A DNA stretch of 34,193 bases from an uncultured Clostridia bacterium (GTDB taxonomy: Bacteria; Bacillota; Clostridia; Oscillospirales; Acutalibacteraceae): assembly GCA_947170465.1 (NCBI GenBank), contig CAMVTS010000021.1, forward strand, positions 1 to 34,193, given 5' to 3'. A program made the position numbers and the translations under genes. The notes under the pieces were generated by a model. It saw only the letters and a program-made list of their open reading frames with translations. It made no database searches and was not told where the DNA came from. Positions 3,202 through 26,028 of the stretch are shown piece after piece. Every line of letters starts with the position of its first letter. Position 1 is the stretch's first letter.

Positions 3202-3552
3202 ATGATTGATTATAGTTATTCTGAGTTGGAAGAAAGCGATATTAAACGAGTATTTGAAAGTAAGGAAGCGTCAAAATATAGAGTAATAGACTGCGAAGCC
3301 ACCTATTTCTATGCTGAATGCGAAGACGAACCTGACATGTTTATGAATCATCTGAAAGTCGCTGTCTATGAAACACAACATAACATTCTTTCAGATGAGA
3401 TGAAAGCGGACTTCATCCAATACGCTGACCGCTGGGATAAAGGCGAATTCCAACCCGACCTCATGCCCGGTGATATTCCTTTGATTCAGAAGGATATCGA
3501 CTTTGTCAGGAAAATGATTGGCGGTCATTGTACCGATTCAAACAATCATTAA
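3202..3552 (+). CDS. Unknown acidic protein, first copy of a tandem duplication
   Basis: This 116-residue protein is acidic (many Glu/Asp in the first 50 residues), with no signal peptide or membrane segment, so it is probably cytoplasmic. I do not recognise the family. GGAAGGAAACCG precedes the ATG. It is 407 bases from a second copy that is identical over the first ~75 codons and differs by only five silent changes later, until the last few residues (CTDSNNH here, CTDHEADNH there). The terminator after the second copy is present here only as its left half (3552-3580), so transcription should read through. Such small acidic duplicated proteins include immunity proteins, but no toxin partner is visible. 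Confidence 0.7.
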   Translation: MIDYSYSELEESDIKRVFESKEASKYRVIDCEATYFYAECEDEPDMFMNHLKVAVYETQHNILSDEMKADFIQYADRWDKGEFQPDLMPGDIPLIQKDIDFVRKMIGGHCTDSNNH

Positions 3553-3608
3553 GCAGCACGGCAGCCCTGTCAGAAGCAGACAAACACTCACAGAAAGGAA
3601 GGAAACCG

Positions 3609-3965
3609 ATGATTGATTATAGTTATTCTGAGTTGGAAGAAAGCGATATTAAACGAGTATTTGAAAGTAAGGAAGCGTCAAAATATAGAGTAATAGACTG
3701 CGAAGCCACCTATTTCTATGCTGAATGCGAAGACGAACCTGACATGTTTATGAATCATCTGAAAGTCGCTGTCTATGAAACACAACATAACATTCTTTCA
3801 GATGAGATGAAAGCGGACTTCATCCAATACGCTGATCGCTGGGATAAAGGCGAATTTCAGCCCGACCTCATGCCCGGTGATATTCCTCTGATTCAAAAGG
3901 ATATCGACTTTGTCAGGAAAATGATTGGCGGTCATTGTACCGATCATGAAGCAGACAATCATTAA
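3609..3965 (+). CDS. Unknown acidic protein, second copy of a tandem duplication
   Basis: This 118-residue protein is a near-identical copy of the gene at 3202-3552. I chose the ATG at 3609 because it has the same ribosome site (GGAAGGAAACCG) and N-terminus as copy one; the frame is open further upstream but that part is the duplicated non-coding tail of copy one. The only protein difference is the extreme C-terminus. Nucleotide changes are synonymous and lie in the last third. The gene ends in a strong hairpin terminator. Function unknown. Confidence 0.7.
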   Translation: MIDYSYSELEESDIKRVFESKEASKYRVIDCEATYFYAECEDEPDMFMNHLKVAVYETQHNILSDEMKADFIQYADRWDKGEFQPDLMPGDIPLIQKDIDFVRKMIGGHCTDHEADNH

Positions 3966-14540: not shown

Positions 14541-15182
14541 CTAATATGTCAGTGTAATCGTCACATTCCCGTTTGAGAGAAGCCGCGTTAGCTCCTCATT
14601 TGTTTTGTCACTGATGTGACCGAGACGTGTGTATGCCCATGTATTAGAGCCGTAGAACACGACCATCTGATTTCCCGAATACAGGATAACATCTCCGGGA
14701 GAGGTCGTGATCCTTGTATCGTTTCTCGGAAGCGACATACCGAGCGAGCCGACCTGCTCAAAGCCGCCGTACATGGACATCTGAACGGTAAGCGGCTTGG
14801 ACTTAACCGCTGCTTTTAAGGCTGCGACGGCTTCATTGTTTTCCCACTCTACTTGAACGGGCGTGTTATTGATCGTCATGTGTATTCCTTTCTGTTTTTC
14901 CTCCGCAGGAAAATGCTCAAACATCTCTGCAAGATATTGCTGAATAAGTGTTGCGTCCTGAATAGAAAGCGTTGTTTCTCCGCTGACAAGCACTGCCTGC
15001 AAGTTTTCTTCCGGTATCATTTCCAGCTCGGCAACATGCCGCTGAATGCAGGTGACGTCGTTGATACTCACAAAGCCGTCGCCGTTTGCATCTCCCCATA
15101 TTTTTTCGGTTTCTGCTGCGTGTACGCTGATAACCGACAGCAGTATGATGGCGGCAATCAAAAGTCCGCTGAGTCTTTTCAT
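14541..15182 (-). CDS. Secreted dockerin plus cyclophilin-like fold protein
   Basis: I start this 213-residue protein at the ATG at 15182, with GGGGGT upstream and a signal peptide MKRLSGLLIAAIILLSVISVHAAE; the open frame further upstream overlaps the lipoprotein gene out of frame. Residues about 28-95 are a dockerin: the first repeat (GDANGDGFVSINDVTCIQ) is complete, while the second (SGETTLSIQDATLIQ) has lost Ca ligands. Residues about 100-213 are a cyclophilin-like domain (VEWENNEAVAALK, MSMYGGFEQVGSLGMSLPR, VILYSGNQMVVFYGSN). The role of such domains is not established. Second of two cyclophilin-like proteins in the operon; a frameshifted paralogue is at 2266-2899. Confidence 0.85.
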   Translation of the reverse strand: MKRLSGLLIAAIILLSVISVHAAETEKIWGDANGDGFVSINDVTCIQRHVAELEMIPEENLQAVLVSGETTLSIQDATLIQQYLAEMFEHFPAEEKQKGIHMTINNTPVQVEWENNEAVAALKAAVKSKPLTVQMSMYGGFEQVGSLGMSLPRNDTRITTSPGDVILYSGNQMVVFYGSNTWAYTRLGHISDKTNEELTRLLSNGNVTITLTY

Positions 15183-15195
15183 GATTTTACCCCCG

Positions 15196-15795
15196 TTATC
15201 CCAAACTGATGGTGATAGTGGTATCGCCTTTGGATAAAAGCTGTGCCATGCCGTCGGCGCTTTGGTCTGTGATATGTCCGAGACGGGTGTATGCCCACCT
15301 GTTGGAGCCGTAGAAAACGACCATCTGATTGCCGGAATAGAGCACGATATCGCCTGCGGAGGTGGTTGTCTGCACATCATTCGCCGGCAGATCCATTCCG
15401 ATGGAACCGACCTGTTCAAAGCCGCCGTACATGGACATGGCGATCGTCAGCGGCTGATTTTGACAAAGCTCTTTGAGCGTCTGCACCGCTTCGTTATCTT
15501 CCCATGCAACCGAAACAGGCGTGCTGCCGATTGTCATTTGCAGCGACATATTTTGCTTCTCCTGCGGCGGTTCTTCTTCGGTATGCGGTTGTTCTTCAAT
15601 CCGCGTTTCTTCGGTCTGAGGCTGTTCGGTTTGGCTTGTTTCCTCCTGCGGCGCTTCGGTAGTTACAGGAGCAGTTGCACCGGCTGCGACCGTTGCCGGC
15701 TGCGTGGCGGGTTCCGTTTCTTTTTGCGCGTTGCCGCAAGCGGTCGCCGAAACAACGATTCCGGCGGCTAATAAGATAAACAACACCTTTTTCAT
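15196..15795 (-). CDS. Cyclophilin-like fold lipoprotein
   Basis: This 199-residue protein begins with a lipoprotein-type signal (MKKVLFILLAAGIVVSATAC, Cys20). A Thr/Glu/Gln/Pro-rich linker of about 60 residues follows, and then a cyclophilin-like domain (MTIGSTPVSVAWEDNEAVQTLK ... MYGGFEQVGSIGMDLP ... SGNQMVVFYGSN), closely related to the next gene's domain but without a dockerin. It should be tethered outside the membrane. The start codon follows the upstream stop by one base and the AAGGAG site lies within that gene, so translation is coupled. The next gene begins 14 bases downstream. Confidence 0.87.
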   Translation of the reverse strand: MKKVLFILLAAGIVVSATACGNAQKETEPATQPATVAAGATAPVTTEAPQEETSQTEQPQTEETRIEEQPHTEEEPPQEKQNMSLQMTIGSTPVSVAWEDNEAVQTLKELCQNQPLTIAMSMYGGFEQVGSIGMDLPANDVQTTTSAGDIVLYSGNQMVVFYGSNRWAYTRLGHITDQSADGMAQLLSKGDTTITISLG

Positions 15796-19107: not shown

Positions 19108-19512
19108 ATGGACTGTGTATTTTGTAAAATTCTCAGCGGAGAACTTCCCGGTTCCAAGCTGTACGAAAACGATACCACGATTGCGATAATGGATATTGCA
19201 GACGACGTTGACGGACACATCCTCGTCATTCCGAAGAAGCACTACAAAAATATTCTTGACTGCGACAGCGATACGCTTCACGACTTGATGGACACCGCTC
19301 AAAAGGTTTCCCGTCATCTTGTCGACAACTGCGGTTACGACGGTGTGAACCTCCTCAACGCCAGCGATGAAAGTGCGGGGCAGTCGGTGCCGCATTTCCA
19401 CATCCATATCATTCCGCGTAAGCGCAATGACGGCATTGACGGATGGCCTGTCTTCAAGGGCGCCAAAAAGAGCTATTCCTATCATTTTGAAAAACTGAAA
19501 ATGAACGGTTGA
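19108..19512 (+). CDS. HIT-family (histidine triad) nucleotide hydrolase/transferase
   Basis: I start this 134-residue protein at the ATG at 19108, 8 bases after AAGGAGG; the GTG further upstream overlaps that site. The N-terminal CVFCKILSGELP and the histidine triad HFHIHII (His96, His98, His100) place it with HINT/protein kinase C inhibitor-like proteins, which hydrolyse AMP-lysine-type phosphoramidates. The length is typical. Single gene with its own promoter; the stop overlaps the start of the next promoter (TTGACA at 19509). Confidence 0.92.
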   Translation: MDCVFCKILSGELPGSKLYENDTTIAIMDIADDVDGHILVIPKKHYKNILDCDSDTLHDLMDTAQKVSRHLVDNCGYDGVNLLNASDESAGQSVPHFHIHIIPRKRNDGIDGWPVFKGAKKSYSYHFEKLKMNG

Positions 19513-19537
19513 CAAATACCATTTCAGAAATTATAAT
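19509..19537 (+). promoter_or_regulatory. Perfect consensus promoter for the riboswitch transcript
   Basis: TTGACA (19509-19514), 17 bases, TATAAT (19532-19537). Transcription should start at about 19544, exactly at the first strand of the riboswitch P1 helix. Confidence 0.85.
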
Positions 19538-19543
19538 ATAACC

Positions 19544-19630
19544 GACCTATAAAGAGTGCGCGAGAGACAAGCTCGTTGACCGCACACCAACCTGCCGTGA
19601 GGTAAGGTGGTAATGCTTGACCGATAGGAG
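19544..19630 (+). ncRNA. SAM-clan riboswitch aptamer (SAM-I/IV-variant-like)
   Basis: The architecture follows the S-box core. P1 is CCTAT (19546-19550) with ATAGG (19624-19628), then the AAAGAG joining segment. P2 is GTGCG/CGCAC, with an inner GAG/CTC helix and a kink-turn-like GTTGAC. P3 has the conserved CAACC ... AAGGTGGTAAT. The P2 loop CAAGC (19568-19572) pairs with GCTTG (19615-19619) as the expected pseudoknot. The P4 hairpin of SAM-I is missing, as in SAM-IV and SAM-I/IV variants. A terminator follows at 19643-19672. It most likely senses S-adenosylmethionine and turns transcription off. The class assignment is by eye from conserved elements. Confidence 0.75.
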
Positions 19631-19642
19631 ATTATGAACGAT

Positions 19643-19672
19643 ACGCCTGTCGGAAACGATGGGCGTTTTTTT
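19643..19672 (+). terminator. Riboswitch expression-platform terminator
   Basis: ACGCCTGTCG (19643-19652), GAAA loop, CGATGGGCGT (19657-19666), then a T-run to 19672. CCTGTCGG (19646-19653) can instead pair with CCGATAGG (19621-19628), which includes the 3' strand of P1: a clear antiterminator. Ligand-stabilised P1 would therefore allow the terminator to form. Confidence 0.8.
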
Positions 19673-19711
19673 GTGCTCCGAATAGGGAATAATTTTTTCG
19701 GAGGATTGAAC

Positions 19712-19981
19712 ATGAAAACAATCGAAAGTCTTATCAACGCAAGCAAGAAGGTCTATGTCAAAATGAGTAGTGACGCAATCTGCAAGCAATTTTTCACACA
19801 AGCTGAACGCGAAGGATTTTTGTTTGGAGGTGAAAAACCGACCAAAAAAGAGCCCTCGGATATCATCGCTGTGTTACCTGACAAAAGGATCTGCTATGTC
19901 GGCACCATTGGCAGGATCGCGGCAGGGTCGGGAGCGGAGAATGTGGTCGTGGTTGAAGCTGAGGCGCTATTGGCGCCGTAA
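19712..19981 (+). CDS. Unknown 89-residue protein under riboswitch control
   Basis: I use the ATG at 19712 (MKTIESLINASKKVYVKMSS), 7 bases after GGAGG; the upstream in-frame ATG at 19634 lies inside the riboswitch platform. The protein has no signal peptide or membrane segment and no named domain that I recognise; the middle (FTQAEREGFLFGGEKPTKKEPSDIIAVLPDKRICYVGTIGRIA) resembles small phage- or element-associated hypothetical proteins. It is the only gene between the SAM-type riboswitch and the mobile element. Either it is a genuine SAM-controlled gene, or the original target was displaced by the insertion. Confidence 0.65.
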   Translation: MKTIESLINASKKVYVKMSSDAICKQFFTQAEREGFLFGGEKPTKKEPSDIIAVLPDKRICYVGTIGRIAAGSGAENVVVVEAEALLAP

Positions 19982-20086
19982 CACGCCCTGTTGCGCCCTG
20001 TGTGCGGTTTTTGTGGAACAGCAGGAACCAAACCCGACAAATAACTTTCGTGCAAATCAGGGCGTTTCTCGCGGTCGTTTGTGTCG

Positions 20087-20117
20087 AGTCAAAATCTGCA
20101 CCGCATTAATCAAAGAA
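20087..20117 (+). repeat. 31-base dispersed repeat, copy 2 (left of the mobile element)
   Basis: AGTCAAAATCTGCACCGCAT at the left followed by tAATCAAAGAA. It lies 72 bases before the element's first promoter, in the same orientation as copy 3 on the other side (25964-25994). The two differ at six positions. Confidence 0.6.
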
Positions 20118-20158
20118 TACGACGTTCAAAAACGTGCAAACATTTATTCTAAAATCTA

Positions 20159-20202
20159 TTGACACAAATGTTCGAATGTGTTATACTGAACATACATTCG
20201 AA
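20159..20202 (+). promoter_or_regulatory. Leading promoter of the mobile element with inverted-repeat operator
   Basis: TTGACA (20159-20164), 17 bases, TATACT (20182-20187). TTCGAATGT (20171-20179) in the spacer and its exact inverse ACATTCGAA (20194-20202) at the transcript start bracket the -10 box, so a dimeric repressor bound to both would block it. The right arm context GAACATACATTCG also resembles a Gram-positive LexA box. Confidence 0.7.
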
Positions 20203-20211
20203 TAAAAAAAC

Positions 20212-20260
20212 ACCATACACAGTCCGCAAAGTCATCGCGGGCGTGTATGGTTTTCATTTT
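20212..20260 (+). terminator. Leader terminator/attenuator of the mobile-element operon
   Basis: ACCATACAC (20212-20220) pairs with GTGTATGGT (20243-20251) and GTCCGC (20222-20227) with GCGGGC (20237-20242), followed by TTTTCATTTT. It lies between the promoter and the first gene. A second hairpin AACGCTG/CAGCGTT (20264-20280) stands just before the ribosome site. Confidence 0.7.
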
Positions 20261-20303
20261 CAAAACGCTGACGCAGCGTTACATTTTCATCAGGAGGTGC
20301 GCT

Positions 20304-20501
20304 ATGGAACACAAAACATACAAAAGCTATGATGAACTGCCGCTGATGTTATCGGTGCAGGACGTTGCCGACGTGCTGGGTATTTCAATGTCTGGCGCGT
20401 ATGAGCTGGTCAAGGAGAAAGGATTCCCTCACCTGAGAATCGGCGCCAGGATCGTGGTGCCGAAGGAGAAGTTCATCAAGTGGGTGAAGGATAACTCATG
20501 A
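20304..20501 (+). CDS. Excisionase-type HTH DNA-binding protein
   Basis: I start this 65-residue protein at the ATG at 20304, 8 bases after AGGAGG; the in-frame ATG upstream sits inside the leader hairpin. Residues about 13-62 are a MerR-like winged HTH of the excisionase family (LSVQDVADVLGISMSGAYELVKEKGFPHLRIGARIVVPKEKFIKWV). Such proteins bend DNA at attachment sites and direct the integrase towards excision, or act as small regulators. First gene of the element; its stop overlaps the next start by 4 bases (ATGA). Confidence 0.85.
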   Translation: MEHKTYKSYDELPLMLSVQDVADVLGISMSGAYELVKEKGFPHLRIGARIVVPKEKFIKWVKDNS

Positions 20502-20926
20502 CAAAATATGCAATGACGCCGCAGGGACAGTATCACGGTCCGCTCCCTGTGCGAAATTTCTTTCCTATGCCGAACGCGATCTTTGATCTTGGGCTTACGG
20601 CAGAGGAAATAGCTGTCTATGCCTTTCTGATGAGCTGCGAGGACAGGCGAACCTACACGTGTTATCCAAGCTACAAAATAATCGGCAAAGCGATCGGCAA
20701 AAGCAAAAATACCGTCATCAAGTATGTGGGTATGCTTGAAGAAAAGGGCTTGATATCCAAGCACAAAACCTTTGTGATAACCGACAACGGAAAGGCATGG
20801 AACGGCAACCTGATGTTCACGATCGCGCCCATCAGAAGCGCGATAGATGTGCATTATTATCATCAGATGTGGGATCGGAAAAATATCCAATACATCAAGC
20901 AGCCAAAACGCAAAAAACGCAGATGA
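20498..20926 (+). CDS. HTH protein of replication-initiator/DnaD-like type
   Basis: This 142-residue protein starts on the ATGA overlap with the excisionase gene. Residues about 18-95 form a winged HTH (FFPMPNAIFDLGLTAEEIAVYAFLMSCEDRRTYTCYPSYKIIGKAIGKSKNTVIKYVGMLEEKGLI) like the N-terminal domain of RepA-N initiators and HTH_36 proteins. The tail is very basic (KQPKRKKRR), as expected for DNA binding. In an element with no other replication gene, it could be a reduced initiator or a regulator. Confidence 0.75.
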   Translation: MTKYAMTPQGQYHGPLPVRNFFPMPNAIFDLGLTAEEIAVYAFLMSCEDRRTYTCYPSYKIIGKAIGKSKNTVIKYVGMLEEKGLISKHKTFVITDNGKAWNGNLMFTIAPIRSAIDVHYYHQMWDRKNIQYIKQPKRKKRR

Positions 20927-20945
20927 TTATCAAAAGCAGGTTAAA

Positions 20946-20992
20946 GTCAGGCGTCTGCCTTGACGCTATACATCAGCCGGCAGAGCCGACTG
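20946..20992 (+). other. Candidate origin of transfer: two hairpins before the relaxase genes
   Basis: GTCAGGC/GCCTTGAC (20946-20964, one bulge) and CAGCCGGC/GCCGACTG (20974-20992, one mismatch) lie in the 140-base gap between the HTH gene and the RHH/relaxase genes. Mobilisation origins often have such inverted repeats beside mob genes. No nick site can be assigned from sequence. Confidence 0.35.
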
Positions 20993-21067
20993 TTGCGATG
21001 TTCAAGGCGTTATTCGGCGGTTTTGTTGGTTGCTATATTTCGGGGTCTATATTTTGAGGTGTTTTTC

Positions 21068-21469
21068 ATGGTTGAAAATAAGAAAAAATACGCTTATTGG
21101 ATGTATCCATCCATGGTCAAAGAAATAGAAAAATCACTTGATATGGCGAACGCCACCTCAAAAAGTGATTTTGTAAGTCAGGCGGTGAATTTTTATATCC
21201 GCTACCTGCATTTGGGAAAATCGATGAACCTCTTGGCGCCCGTACTTGAGAACACTGTTCACAGCGAAGTTGAGAGCGCCGAGCGAAATCTTTCCGAGAT
21301 GATGTTCAAAATCGCCGTGGAGCTCGGCATGATTTCCAATCAGCTCTGCAATGTTTATCAGTTCGACAGAAACGCATTTAAGAAATTGAGAGAGAACGTC
21401 GCGGAGGAAATTGCATCCACCAACGGCATATTTACCTTCGACGACGCCTACCTCTGGCAGGATAATTAA
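21068..21469 (+). CDS. Ribbon-helix-helix relaxosome accessory protein (MobC-like role)
   Basis: I start this 133-residue protein at the ATG at 21068, with GAGGTG 6 bases upstream; the open frame before it has no better start. Residues about 10-50 (YWMYPSMVKEIEKSLDMANATSKSDFVSQAVNFYIRYL) look like a ribbon-helix-helix DNA-binding unit, followed by a helical region. It sits two bases before the relaxase start, the typical place of a nicking accessory protein that binds the transfer origin. No similarity to a named protein can be confirmed by eye. Confidence 0.7.
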   Translation: MVENKKKYAYWMYPSMVKEIEKSLDMANATSKSDFVSQAVNFYIRYLHLGKSMNLLAPVLENTVHSEVESAERNLSEMMFKIAVELGMISNQLCNVYQFDRNAFKKLRENVAEEIASTNGIFTFDDAYLWQDN

Positions 21470-21471
21470 CG

Positions 21472-22824
21472 ATGGCTAAATTTATTTTGACGAGCCGCTT
21501 TATCAAAAATCCCGCCTTTGCCAACGCGGGAAAGCTGCTGCAATATATGGCAACGCGCGACGGTGTAGAGAAGTTACCGCGTGGTATTGACAACAAGCCT
21601 GCCACCAAACAACAGGAAAAGCTCATCAACAGTATCACAAAAAAGTATCCGGAAACAAAGCAGTCGATTGAGTTTGAGGACTATGAAAACGCGCCGACCA
21701 AGGCAAATGCGAGTGAGTTTCTCTCTTACTTTGAAGAAAATTACGCCGACAAGATTGAGGATATGAAAACGCTTGTCCGGTATTTTGCAGAGCGTCCGGG
21801 CGTGGAAAAGCTCGGCAGTCACGGATTGTTTTCACAAACAGACGATAAAATCAACCTCGATGAAGTGGCTGATGAGGTAAGCAATCACGACGGCGTCGTA
21901 TGGACGCACGTGCTGAGTCTGCATCGCGAGGACGCGGAAAGGCTCGGCTATAACAACGCGAAGGCGTGGAAAAATCTTGTGCGCAGAAATGTTGCAGCCA
22001 TTGCCGAAGCACATAAGAGCGATCTGGACGACCTGCAATGGTACGCTGCGTTCCACAATACCGGTCATCATCCGCATATTCACCTGATTGTTTACTCCAA
22101 ATCAGGGCAGGGATATCTCACCAATAAGGGCATCGAATTGCTCCGCAGCCGGTTCGGAAACGATATTTTTCGCAACGAACAGTACAAGCTCTTTGAAATG
22201 CAGACGGAGATCCGCGACGAGCTGAAGGGCGAAGCAAGAAATGTTATCGAGGATCTGCTCGCGCATATTGACAGCAGCATCACGCCGTCCGATGAGCTTG
22301 TTGATCTGTTCAATCAGCTGAATGAGGCGATGAAGCAGCACAAAGGCAAGTGGCTCTACGGGTATTTGCAGAAGCCCGTGAAGGAAATCGTAGACAAAAT
22401 CGTTCACGAAATCGCCAAAGACCCGGGCATTGCCGCACTCTATGAAAAGTGGAATGAGGTCAACCGCGAAAAGCTTTCGCTCTATCACGAGAAGAAAACG
22501 CCCGACATTCCTCTCGAGGACAACAAAGAATTCCGCAGCATTAAAAACGATTTGCTCCGGTTGATGAAAGCACTTTCACAACTGCCGGTCAGCGAACAAA
22601 TCACCGCGGCAAATCTTTCTCCGGGCATATCGGGATTGATTTACAAGCTCGCACAGCTGATCGCAAAGAATTGTATGCAGCGCCGTGCCAAGCTGCGGTC
22701 TCAGGCAGACAGCAAGCTGCTCTCTGCCATTGAAGAAAAGAAACACGCTCACGGCTTGAAAACCGAAAAAAGCGCACAGAATTACGATGAAGATGACGAC
22801 GAATCTTTCGGTATGATAATGTGA
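21472..22824 (+). CDS. MobP-type (MobP3-like) relaxase
   Basis: This 450-residue protein has the three-histidine metal site of MobP relaxases in NTGHHPHIHLIVYS (His200, His202, His204). The likely nicking tyrosine is Y25 in YMATRDGVEKL. A second similar motif, YFAERPGVEKLGSHGLF, starts at Y104. The C-terminal half is helical and charged, ending in an acidic tail (YDEDDDES). Relaxases nick the transfer origin and lead single-stranded DNA into a recipient. It follows the RHH gene by two bases. No conjugation channel is encoded nearby, so transfer would need a helper element. Confidence 0.87.
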   Translation: MAKFILTSRFIKNPAFANAGKLLQYMATRDGVEKLPRGIDNKPATKQQEKLINSITKKYPETKQSIEFEDYENAPTKANASEFLSYFEENYADKIEDMKTLVRYFAERPGVEKLGSHGLFSQTDDKINLDEVADEVSNHDGVVWTHVLSLHREDAERLGYNNAKAWKNLVRRNVAAIAEAHKSDLDDLQWYAAFHNTGHHPHIHLIVYSKSGQGYLTNKGIELLRSRFGNDIFRNEQYKLFEMQTEIRDELKGEARNVIEDLLAHIDSSITPSDELVDLFNQLNEAMKQHKGKWLYGYLQKPVKEIVDKIVHEIAKDPGIAALYEKWNEVNREKLSLYHEKKTPDIPLEDNKEFRSIKNDLLRLMKALSQLPVSEQITAANLSPGISGLIYKLAQLIAKNCMQRRAKLRSQADSKLLSAIEEKKHAHGLKTEKSAQNYDEDDDESFGMIM

Positions 22825-22885
22825 ATTTTCTCTGGATATTCCAAAAAAGATGTGGTATCCTGTGTTGCTGACAGGAGGTGAAAGC

Positions 22886-24124
22886 ATGGCAGGAAAACGC
22901 CCTGACGGCGACGGTCTCGTCCGCAAACGAAGCGACGGTCGATGGGAAGGCAGGATCGTTATCGGTCACAAGGATGACGGCACGGCGATCTACAAAAGCG
23001 TGTTTGCCAAAACACAGAAGGAACTGATGCCGAAGCTGCATCAGATGATCGAGGAATACAAAGACGTTGACCTCACCGAAAACAGCAGCATGACGCTCGG
23101 TGAGTGGATGGAAAAATGGGTGGATGACTACGCAGAGCCGACGCTTCGGCAGCGCACAATCGACGGTTACCGTAGCATGATCAAGAACCATATCCGACCG
23201 GCACTCGGCAATAAACCGCTGCGCTTCCTCACGCAGAAGGACGTGCAGAGGTTCTACAATGCGCTCAAGCGAAAAAAGGTCAACAAGCTCGGCAAGCATC
23301 ACACGCTCGCGGATTCCTACATCCGAAAGATCCACATGCTCCTGCACGAAATCCTCGACGCGGCGGTCGCTTCAAAGCTGATCTCAAAGAACCCGACCGA
23401 GGGCACAACGATCCCGAAAAACAACTATGCGCCCAAGAGAATACTCAACGCGGAACAGCTCGACCGCTTCATGCAGGCGATCCTGAGTGAACCGATGTGG
23501 CACGATTTCTTCTACACAGAGATCACCACCGGGCTGCGGCTCGGTGAGATATGCGGACTGAAGTGGAGCGACCTCGACGAAAACACCGGCAAGTTACAGA
23601 TTCGACGCTCTGTTTCTCACGAGCCGGGCGGTGGTTTGACCTTCGGCGATACCAAAACAGAGAAAGGTATGCGCACCATTCTGCTGCCGAAGGGAACGCT
23701 TCATGTGCTCAAAGAGCGCAAAAAACACGCCGTCACGGAATGGATTTTCCCGAGCCTGCTCACACCCGAACAGCCAACCGCGCCCAACAGTGCCTATCAG
23801 CGGCTGAAGGTCATTCTGCAAAACGCAGGACTGCCTGACATACGCTTTCATGATTTAAGGCACACCTTCGCCACACACGCACTGTCGAATGGTGTGGACG
23901 CCAAAACGCTTTCGGGGATCCTCGGTCACACCAACGCGAGCTTCACGCTCGACACCTATACCCACGTCACCACCGATATGCAGAAAAACGCTTCCGCTGT
24001 CGTCGGTGACTTCATGGAAGAATTGTTTGGAAGTGATTTACAGCCATGGCAAAACGGAGAAAAGCAGGACAAGGAACCCTTCGTCTGCGCAAAGACGGAC
24101 GATGGGAAGGCAGAGTCGTCATAG
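22886..24124 (+). CDS. Tyrosine recombinase (integrase), first of two
   Basis: I start this 412-residue protein at the ATG at 22886, 7 bases after AGGAGG. Residues 1-60 are an AP2-like arm-binding domain (GDGLVRKRSDGRWEGRIVIG), 65-165 the SAM-like core-binding domain, and about 185-370 the catalytic domain. Catalytic residues are R218 (TGLRLGE), K257, H322 and R325 (HDLRHT), H348 (LGHTN) and Y358. All are present, so the enzyme should be active. The last 26 codons overlap the start of the second recombinase gene in another frame. Confidence 0.92.
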   Translation: MAGKRPDGDGLVRKRSDGRWEGRIVIGHKDDGTAIYKSVFAKTQKELMPKLHQMIEEYKDVDLTENSSMTLGEWMEKWVDDYAEPTLRQRTIDGYRSMIKNHIRPALGNKPLRFLTQKDVQRFYNALKRKKVNKLGKHHTLADSYIRKIHMLLHEILDAAVASKLISKNPTEGTTIPKNNYAPKRILNAEQLDRFMQAILSEPMWHDFFYTEITTGLRLGEICGLKWSDLDENTGKLQIRRSVSHEPGGGLTFGDTKTEKGMRTILLPKGTLHVLKERKKHAVTEWIFPSLLTPEQPTAPNSAYQRLKVILQNAGLPDIRFHDLRHTFATHALSNGVDAKTLSGILGHTNASFTLDTYTHVTTDMQKNASAVVGDFMEELFGSDLQPWQNGEKQDKEPFVCAKTDDGKAESS

Positions 24125-25488
24125 GTTACGACGACAACGGAAAGCCGAAAACAAAAAATGTAACCGCCAAAACCAAAGCGGCATGTCAGGAAAAGCTCGA
24201 CGAACTCAAGCAGCAGGTCAGCATTGTCACAGGAAAAGCCGCGCCGGATATGCCCTTCGGAGAATGGATGGAGCTCTGGTACAAGACCTATTCCAAACCG
24301 CATATACGTCTTACCACACAGCTTTGCTACGAAAACCGCATCTATCTGCACATCATTCCCTCTATCGGTGAGATACCGCTGAATAAGCTGACGCAGAGCA
24401 ATCTGCAAAAGTTTTACGCCGACCTCAAAAAGAACGGCAGAAAAAGCAAGGTCGAACGATACGGCACCGGCGTGTCCGATCGCCTGGTTCGCTCCTGCCA
24501 TGCCACCTGCCGCACTGCATTGCAAAAGGCAGTGGAAGAAAAGCTGATCGGCGTAAACCCGGCGATCGGCTGCAAGCTGCCTCCGAAAAAGGCACAGGAA
24601 ATGCAGGTGCTCACGCACGAGGAAATGCGTCGGTTTCTGATCCAATCCAAGCAGGACGATTTCTACGAGCTCGCCTTGCTGGAGCTGGCGACCGGTATGC
24701 GCCGCGGTGAGATCTGCGCATTGAAGTGGTCAGACCTCGACTTTGAAACCGGCGCGCTCCGTATTCAGCGTCAGGCGTATCATGTGGATCACGGCGTAGT
24801 GATCTCCGAACCGAAAACAAAGCAGTCATGCCGCTCGATCATCCTGCCGCCTTCTGTGCTGAATGTGCTCAGGCAGTACCGTGAAGCGGTGGATTCGGAG
24901 TGGATGTTTCCCTCACCCGTCAAGGAAGGCGAGCCGCTCAATCCCAACGGCGTGTACCGCAAAATGGTGAAAATCCTGGACAGAGCGCAGTGCAAGCGCG
25001 TCCGCTTTCACGACCTTCGCCACACCTTTGCCACAACCGCGCTTGAGCACGGCATGGACATCAAAACGCTGTCGGCGATCATCGGGCATGTCTCGTCGGC
25101 TACCACCCTCGATATCTACAGCCACATCACGGATGAAATGCAGGCAAACGCGGCGAACAAAATCGAAAAACGCTTCTCCAAAAACGAACCGTTCGAGCAA
25201 AGCGAATATGAAACGCAGAAACAGGCTTCGTCGTCTGCGGAGAGCTTTGAACCGTACAAAGGCAAAATCCGCAAGTCAGGCACCGGCGGCATCTATGAGC
25301 TGAACGACCATCTCTTCGAGGGTCGATACTCCCCCACCAATGCCTACGGCAAGCGCGAAGTACACACCGTCTACGCTAAAACGAGAGAAGAATGCGAGCA
25401 CCTGCTCGACGAGATGATCCCTAAGGTTCGCGCGGAGATCAAGGCAGAAAAAGAAAGACTGAAAGCAGAGGAAGACTCGTTGACATAA
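24046..25488 (+). CDS. Tyrosine recombinase (integrase), second of two, with extra C-terminal domain
   Basis: This 480-residue protein starts inside the first recombinase gene (79-base overlap). It has the same layout: AP2-like arm-binding domain 8-55 (GQGTLRLRKDGRWEGRVVIG), core-binding domain to about 175, catalytic domain with R219, K257, H322, R325, H348, Y358. The two proteins are clear paralogues with catalytic residues at nearly the same positions. Unusually, about 110 residues follow the catalytic Tyr. Residues 408-460 (GTGGIYELNDHLFEGRYSP ... VYAKTREECEHLLDEM) look like a second copy of the arm-binding domain. Confidence 0.9.
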   Translation: MAKRRKAGQGTLRLRKDGRWEGRVVIGYDDNGKPKTKNVTAKTKAACQEKLDELKQQVSIVTGKAAPDMPFGEWMELWYKTYSKPHIRLTTQLCYENRIYLHIIPSIGEIPLNKLTQSNLQKFYADLKKNGRKSKVERYGTGVSDRLVRSCHATCRTALQKAVEEKLIGVNPAIGCKLPPKKAQEMQVLTHEEMRRFLIQSKQDDFYELALLELATGMRRGEICALKWSDLDFETGALRIQRQAYHVDHGVVISEPKTKQSCRSIILPPSVLNVLRQYREAVDSEWMFPSPVKEGEPLNPNGVYRKMVKILDRAQCKRVRFHDLRHTFATTALEHGMDIKTLSAIIGHVSSATTLDIYSHITDEMQANAANKIEKRFSKNEPFEQSEYETQKQASSSAESFEPYKGKIRKSGTGGIYELNDHLFEGRYSPTNAYGKREVHTVYAKTREECEHLLDEMIPKVRAEIKAEKERLKAEEDSLT

Positions 25489-25508
25489 AAGACGTTGTCA
25501 GCTATAAT
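25480..25508 (+). promoter_or_regulatory. Perfect consensus promoter at the end of the second recombinase gene
   Basis: TTGACA (25480-25485), 17 bases, TATAAT (25503-25508). The -35 box overlaps the stop codon of the recombinase. It should transcribe the 61-residue gene at 25709 with a leader of about 190 bases. Confidence 0.8.
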
Positions 25509-25516
25509 AATATTTG

Positions 25517-25558
25517 AAATTATCAGTTTTCGAGCGGACATAGATTATCTGATAATTT
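25517..25558. repeat. 10-base perfect inverted repeat after the recombinase genes
   Basis: AAATTATCAG (25517-25526) and CTGATAATTT (25549-25558), 22-base spacer. It sits at the start of the transcript from the 25480 promoter and next to the integrase genes, so it may be an RNA hairpin or a recombinase binding site. Confidence 0.6.
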
Positions 25559-25708
25559 GCTCCAAACCCATAGATGTAAATATTTGCAACGGTTGTGGCG
25601 AGCAAAAATGTTCGTGGTCGTCACTTGGACTTAAAAAAGGCTCTCGGTAGCCGGTTATCTGATTGCAGTATTTATCAGCGAAAAATCTATGGAGAAAGGA
25701 GACCGGTT

Positions 25709-25894
25709 ATGGCAAAGAAAAAGGGTGTGTCAGGAAAAACGCATACTCAAAAACAGCTTGACGATTATGCTAACCAACACAATCCAAACAACAAAGCCTA
25801 CAAAGCCAACAAGAATAACCAAAAAGTACAGAAAAACCAAAAGTACGATATTGGTATTCTTGAAGGTGAAAGCTACGGTTGGTGTGACGATTAA
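25709..25894 (+). CDS. Small Lys/Asn-rich unknown protein
   Basis: This 61-residue protein starts at the ATG at 25709, 8 bases after AAAGGAG. It is basic and rich in Asn, Lys and Gln (HTQKQLDDYANQHNPNNKAY...), with an acidic end (EGESYGWCDD). It has no signal peptide or membrane segment. I know similar small hypothetical proteins from gut Firmicutes but cannot give a function. It has its own consensus promoter and a good terminator, which argues for a real gene. Its position just after the recombinases suggests cargo or an accessory gene of the element. Confidence 0.6.
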   Translation: MAKKKGVSGKTHTQKQLDDYANQHNPNNKAYKANKNNQKVQKNQKYDIGILEGESYGWCDD

Positions 25895-25920
25895 GATGAA
25901 TTAACCCATGCAGAAAATAT

Positions 25921-25956
25921 GGCAGTCCTGTTAAAAGCAGGGCTGCCGTATTTTTC
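25921..25956 (+). terminator. Terminator of the small 61-residue gene
   Basis: GGCAGTCCTG (25921-25930) pairs with CAGGGCTGCC (25938-25947) with one wobble, followed by GTATTTTT. The sequence resembles the terminator at 3967-4005. Confidence 0.8.
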
Positions 25957-25963
25957 TTATTGA

Positions 25964-25994
25964 AGTCAAAATTTGAGCTGCATAAAACAAAGAA
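25964..25994 (+). repeat. 31-base dispersed repeat, copy 3 (right of the mobile element)
   Basis: AGTCAAAATTTGAGCTGCAT at the left followed by aAAACAAAGAA. Same orientation as the copies at 5955 and 20087. Confidence 0.6.
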
Positions 25995-26028
25995 AGCGCT
26001 TCCGGATAAAAAGCACTATTGTTCTATT

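Follow-up and report, generated by a model that had tools for sequence, protein, structure and literature searches.

A compact SAM-I riboswitch relative without P4 as a candidate double-locked OFF switch for a small-protein gene of bacteria and phages

Why does a SAM-type aptamer lie directly upstream of a single small gene that borders a mobile element? The locus is part of the window analysed here, a stretch of bacterial DNA of 34,193 nucleotides in total, and the initial annotation offered two answers: either the small gene is a SAM-linked target, or the true target was displaced by an insertion. Our analysis argues for the first answer, and we consider it probable that a compact P4-less relative of SAM-I serves as an OFF switch for this one gene, with transcription and translation both locked. 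The following features were located:

19509-19537, + strand: sigma-70-type promoter, TTGACA-17-TATAAT, 12 of 12 consensus bases
19544-19628, + strand: P4-less SAM-I-like aptamer (RF00162 match, covariation in 43 relatives, pairs checked)
19546-19550/19624-19628, + strand: aptamer P1
19556-19560/19581-19585, + strand: aptamer P2a
19564-19566/19572-19574, + strand: aptamer P2b
19568-19571/19616-19619, + strand: aptamer pseudoknot
19586-19588/19609-19611 and 19591-19596/19601-19604,19606-19607, + strand: aptamer P3
19621-19653, + strand: antiterminator (19621-19628 with 19646-19653; 8 standard pairs, found in the minimum-energy fold of the full leader)
19643-19672, + strand: intrinsic terminator (stem 19643-19666, then T tract; 10 pairs, 6 of them G-C)
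19673-19686, + strand: post-terminator element, able to pair with the 5' strand of the aptamer (19546-19550/19682-19686 and 19554-19559/19673-19678)
19676-19703, + strand: ribosome-binding-site hairpin (19676-19682 with 19697-19703; 7 standard pairs)
19700-19704, + strand: ribosome-binding site GGAGG, from sequence, 7 nt 5' of ATG
19712-19981, + strand: gene of the 89-aa family-A protein (open reading frame; relatives; confident predicted fold)
19982-26017, ends approximate, + strand: mobilisable element with HTH, MobL relaxase and two integrases (Pfam); context, outside the switch

The consensus promoter had been claimed before and agrees at every consensus base. Neighbours of the leader are merR, a HIT-family gene, the mobile element and tRNAs. 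The HIT-family gene (19108-19512) lies between merR and the aptamer and was not found there in the related loci L139, L140, L141 and L143. Within the mobile element, two tandem tyrosine integrase genes overlap at their join (22850-25488). Elsewhere in the window, a tandem duplication has left two adjoining frames (116 and 145 aa; 3202-3965) with almost identical products, and three frames (2266-2670, 14541-15419 and 15196-15795) resemble one another in a C-terminal stretch (PGDVILYSGNQMVVFYGSN and the like).

Searching with covariance models, the check that the initial annotation had proposed, we found that 19544-19630 of the window matches RF00162 (51.8 bits, cut-off 44.4; E 2.8e-9 for the whole window), and the claim of a P4-less SAM-clan aptamer survived. 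The kink-turn in P2 is intact, as are the pseudoknot and the ligand pocket. P4 is missing, the gap between pseudoknot and P1 3' strand being just 4 nt (19620-19623), and the aptamer was therefore filed as a P4-less relative rather than as standard SAM-I. P1, P2a, P2b, P3 and the pseudoknot are present as described previously, except that the pseudoknot is best counted as 4 bp and not as 5 bp, since P2b also needs C19572, one base of the proposed fifth pair. The SAM-IV model (RF00634) gave no match to the window aptamer at E up to 10, and the SAM-I/IV model (RF01725) gave 27.3 bits, which is under its cut-off of 41.1. SAM-IV likewise has no P4, as a passage of PMC6890682 states; its P5 and second pseudoknot were not found in the window aptamer, where the terminator platform directly follows P1. 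In SAM-I/IV, P2 is described as having no internal loop (a passage of PMC2864571), and contrary to this feature the window aptamer has one. The source genome encodes one further SAM-I element, which has P4 (81 bits, C139).

Relatives were sought with RF00162 in 300 genomes of the same bacterial family and then in 40 of these with several or weak hits. Alignment A3 holds 43 P4-less aptamers from this one bacterial family, the window aptamer included, so that the 104.5 bits which the latter scored against a model of the 43 are partly a match by construction. Under the proposed structure, 96.6% of the cells of A3 are paired. Both sides change in 12 of the 26 pairs (shuffled mean 5.2; 0 of 500 shuffles as high), the pseudoknot is paired in all 43 rows with two of its four pairs covarying, and the kink-turn G-A positions A20, G35 and A36 are invariant throughout.

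Model R1, built from P4-less aptamers, scored 86-106 bits at 25 of the 27 family-A-adjacent aptamers in named genomes and 67 (L138) and 56 bits (L127) at the remaining two, versus 34-61 bits for sixty other SAM-I elements of the family, whose P4 was not checked individually. Order-wide the separation is less clean, with L166, L170, L172 and L173 reaching 70-80 bits. These four leaders, together with L199 and L200, are of ordinary SAM-I sequence and stand before metK, yet leave no room for P4; P4 was therefore lost in metK leaders of other families too. A close relative of the P4-less aptamers with another small protein 3' of it (L088:1501-1610; 80 bits with R1) has kept or regained a short P4-like hairpin.

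The survey of homologues for an upstream aptamer, also suggested by the initial annotation, was carried out in the sampled bacterial family, where 25 of the 300 genomes hold 30 family-A loci. A P4-less aptamer lies directly 5' of the gene at 27 of these; the three exceptions (L043, L051 and L060) count against our reading, and in L051 and L060 the family-A gene seems, by eye, to sit operon-like 3' of another open frame. Named genomes, partly the same ones, gave an aptamer at 27 of 32 family-A loci (exceptions L113, L117, L120, L131 and L136). On viral contigs, some of which may be prophages, all ten family-A loci have it. Ruminococcus phage NatCom_28274 (PV036439.1) carries the aptamer (108 bits) 89 nt upstream of its family-A gene, and L211, one of the ten viral loci, is near-identical to this phage. 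Carriers of the aptamer-gene unit include bacteria of this order and class, phages and mobile elements. Since the pair recurs at 27/30 loci of the bacterial family and 10/10 viral loci, we regard the gene as SAM-linked rather than as noise.

Family A accounts for 28 of the 43 partners in A3, among them the divergent L094. A 140-aa family B follows five aptamers and a family C two, while an FGase, an amidohydrolase of the MTA/SAH-deaminase kind, another small protein and metK occur once each; four aptamers have no adjacent long frame. Elsewhere across order and class, P4-less aptamers are also followed by other small proteins, FGase (L179 and L191; L182 by eye), a phage-type ssDNA-binding protein (L184) and an ADP-ribosylglycohydrolase (L178). 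FGase-family amidohydrolases were seen under P4-less SAM aptamers in L093, L179 and L191 (L182 by eye), in L191 directly 5' of metK; our guess is that these enzymes release methionine from N-formylmethionine rather than acting on formylglutamate. In two different genera, the same 11-codon frame, MxENKRxYKPP, follows a P4-less aptamer with no long gene (L039:334-421 and L097:2012-2099, both on the - strand). L165 and L168 encode similar proteins 3' of P4-less switches, with an RNA polymerase alpha C-terminal-like domain (Pfam match in L165).

The expression platform agrees with the mutually exclusive antiterminator and terminator proposed before: the antiterminator strands pair completely, and this pairing excludes both P1 and the terminator. 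The post-terminator element (19673-19686) is absent from the earlier reading of the sequence. Its alternative partners are the aptamer 5' strand and, via 19676-19682, the ribosome-binding site. In the window copy (L002), the duplex with the 5' strand has -13.1 kcal/mol (z -2.7, p 0.015) and that with the ribosome-binding site -12.3 kcal/mol (z -3.6). In its minimum-energy fold (-57.6 kcal/mol), the full window leader has the antiterminator together with the pairing of 5' strand and element, but two bases of the ribosome-binding site pair with 19542-19543; the drawn OFF structure, with ligand and pseudoknot left out, has -45.4 kcal/mol.

We collected 103 leaders, of which 93 were distinct; five were set aside (L113, an ordinary one, and the P4-less metK leaders L166, L170, L172 and L173) and two had no recognisable ribosome-binding site, which left 86. 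The 40 nt upstream of the ribosome-binding site were analysed, with significance from letter shuffles. For the pairing of element and aptamer 5' strand, mean z was -3.4 in the P4-less leaders (p<0.05 in 70 of 86) versus -0.47 in other SAM-I leaders (8 of 56); for pairing with the ribosome-binding site, the values were -2.4 and -0.25. The comparison set had 59 other SAM-I leaders, 56 of them usable and 51 with a metK motif. The complementarity of the P4-less leaders goes far beyond that of other SAM-I leaders. Among the four P4-less metK leaders that had been set aside, only L173 had the 5'-strand pairing; the lock therefore seems to go with small-protein leaders and not with P4 loss in general. 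For the ribosome-binding site, the predicted exposure was 0.43 with the aptamer strand free versus 0.22 with it locked; it rose by more than 0.3 in only 28 of the 86 leaders, which speaks against the lock, and none had a comparable fall. We consider a translation lock likely for the P4-less small-protein leaders as a group and less so for the window leader, where the predicted effect is weak (0.12 versus 0.00).

Taken together, the switch would work as follows. When SAM is plentiful, P1 would be stabilised and the terminator would form, so that transcription stops 5' of the gene; RNA that is read through would be poorly translated too, its ribosome-binding site being paired with the post-terminator element. 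As SAM runs low, the antiterminator would take up the P1 3' strand, and the freed aptamer 5' strand would capture the post-terminator element and expose the ribosome-binding site. At low SAM, this unit with its own promoter and switch would make a small alpha/beta protein.

This double lock has to be weighed against transcription attenuation only, in which the element is a plain ribosome-binding-site hairpin and its likeness to the 5' strand is incidental, AAAGAG being Shine-Dalgarno-like. That the element pairs with both partners, that the 5' strand is nearly invariant and that the predicted opening is small in many leaders, the window's included, would all fit this simpler reading. However, the pairing exceeds the Shine-Dalgarno-like part and covaries in the divergent leaders L115, L160, L171, L119 and L052, and other SAM-I leaders lack the signal. 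Permuted elements also pair worse than a leader's own (-11.9, s.d. 0.23, versus -13.9 kcal/mol in 78 leaders after removal of near-duplicates; 0 of 5000), in a test that leaves shared ancestry in. Moreover, seven leaders without terminator retain the element, as judged by eye (L114, L123, L129, L130, L132, L133 and L135). We thus regard attenuation only as rather unlikely, though a serious contender.

The second answer of the initial annotation, in which a mobile-element insertion displaced the true target and left the 89-aa gene as an accidental neighbour, draws on the integrase/MobL element immediately downstream. Relatives already contradict it: L141 has the order merR, aptamer, gene and tRNAs with no mobile element, and the pair recurs in the bacterial family and in viruses as counted above. 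In the window, gene and tRNAs are separated by the element, which also follows the gene in L139, on a contig that ends inside it; the element was inserted downstream of the 89-aa gene. With the element-free relative, the downstream position and the recurring pair, we ruled the displaced target out, leaving it next to no probability. A changed ligand, as in the spermidine-sensing variants of SAM-I, with the small proteins serving another metabolite, would explain why most gene partners have no known link to SAM. It would also fit the two rows of A3 in which canonical A45 reads G (L048 and L058), where a shift in ligand preference is possible. But A45 is kept, and the pocket intact, in 41 of the 43 aptamers. 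At the positions near SAM listed for SAM-I in a passage of PMC6890682, all 43 rows are unchanged save A45, the variable position 8 and position 59, which is a compensated C/G flip (38 C, 5 G); apart from this flip, the window aptamer holds all ligand-contact nucleotides of that list. J1/2 and the P3 internal loop, which are altered in the spermidine variants (a passage of PMC10853860), retain the SAM-I sequence, and P4-less aptamers precede metK (L103, L167, L169, L186 and L193) or an FGase-metK operon (L191). We consider a changed ligand highly improbable. Covariation is strong in the alignment of the 43 aptamers, and metK too is found behind P4-less aptamers, which makes SAM the likely ligand.

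As claimed before, the 89-aa protein has no recognised domain: the window protein, a single-copy gene product in the source genome, matched nothing in Pfam, PHROGs, NCBIfam or PADLOC, yet judged by its sequence it is a member of a large family. AlphaFold2 predicted a confident small alpha/beta fold (pLDDT 90.3, pTM 0.78), for which we found no convincing relatives among solved structures. Among ten hand-picked neighbours of family-A genes, eight matched defence-related models and two matched none; the matches comprise HKD+Snf2 (L123 and L130), MzaB and MzaC (L132), and BrxP, SspB, SspC and a WYL protein (L142). On the viral contig L211, two DNA methyltransferase genes lie beside the family-A gene, and a member of a superinfection-exclusion family lies near it on L214. 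A role in phage-host conflict is our guess. Some phages are known to encode enzymes that break down SAM to counter restriction (a passage of PMC7877911). These enzymes motivate a further, decidedly speculative and quite unlikely reading, in which aptamer and family A together act as an alarm for SAM depletion in the phage-host arms race. Located on chromosomes, next to defence genes and in phages, the cassette would be silent at normal SAM and would turn on when SAM collapses, for example when an incoming phage degrades it to escape methylation-based defence. The small protein might then block a competitor or protect the defence, and both locks would prevent leak.

The passages of the open-access PMC literature that our searches returned report neither the P4-less class nor its gene family, nor any SAM-I switch on a phage; members of the class may lie unremarked in Rfam alignments. 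The SAM clan hereby gains a naturally P4-less architecture, and a simple route is suggested by which a translation lock is added to a terminator switch: the 5' strand of the aptamer itself is used a second time. Putative expression at low SAM, which is testable, unites several uncharacterised families of small proteins and an FGase-like enzyme of a metK operon. Recurrence in related gut bacteria and some phages points to an unexplored response to falling SAM, and since phages carry the switch, the SAM level is a candidate signal between phage and host.

Among known systems, the spermidine-sensing SAM-I variants (in the passages of PMC10853860) are comparable as rare relatives of SAM-I with unusual gene partners, and differ at the two sites at which the P4-less aptamer keeps SAM-I sequence. 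With SAM-IV (RF00634) and SAM-I/IV (RF01725), the P4-less aptamer has the core in common; it lacks P5 and the second pseudoknot, and keeps the P2 internal loop, the kink-turn and the first pseudoknot. Dual transcription and translation attenuation is a category in PMC2258182, and here too a single aptamer is proposed to control both steps; in our leaders, however, a separate post-terminator element pairs with the aptamer 5' strand, an arrangement that the corresponding section of that paper lacks. Closest is SAM-I itself (S-box, RF00162), which shares P1-P3, kink-turn P2, pseudoknot, ligand pocket and the terminator/antiterminator OFF platform. SAM-I has P4, whereas the P4-less switch adds an element 3' of the terminator and usually partners a small protein of unknown function instead of a methionine gene.
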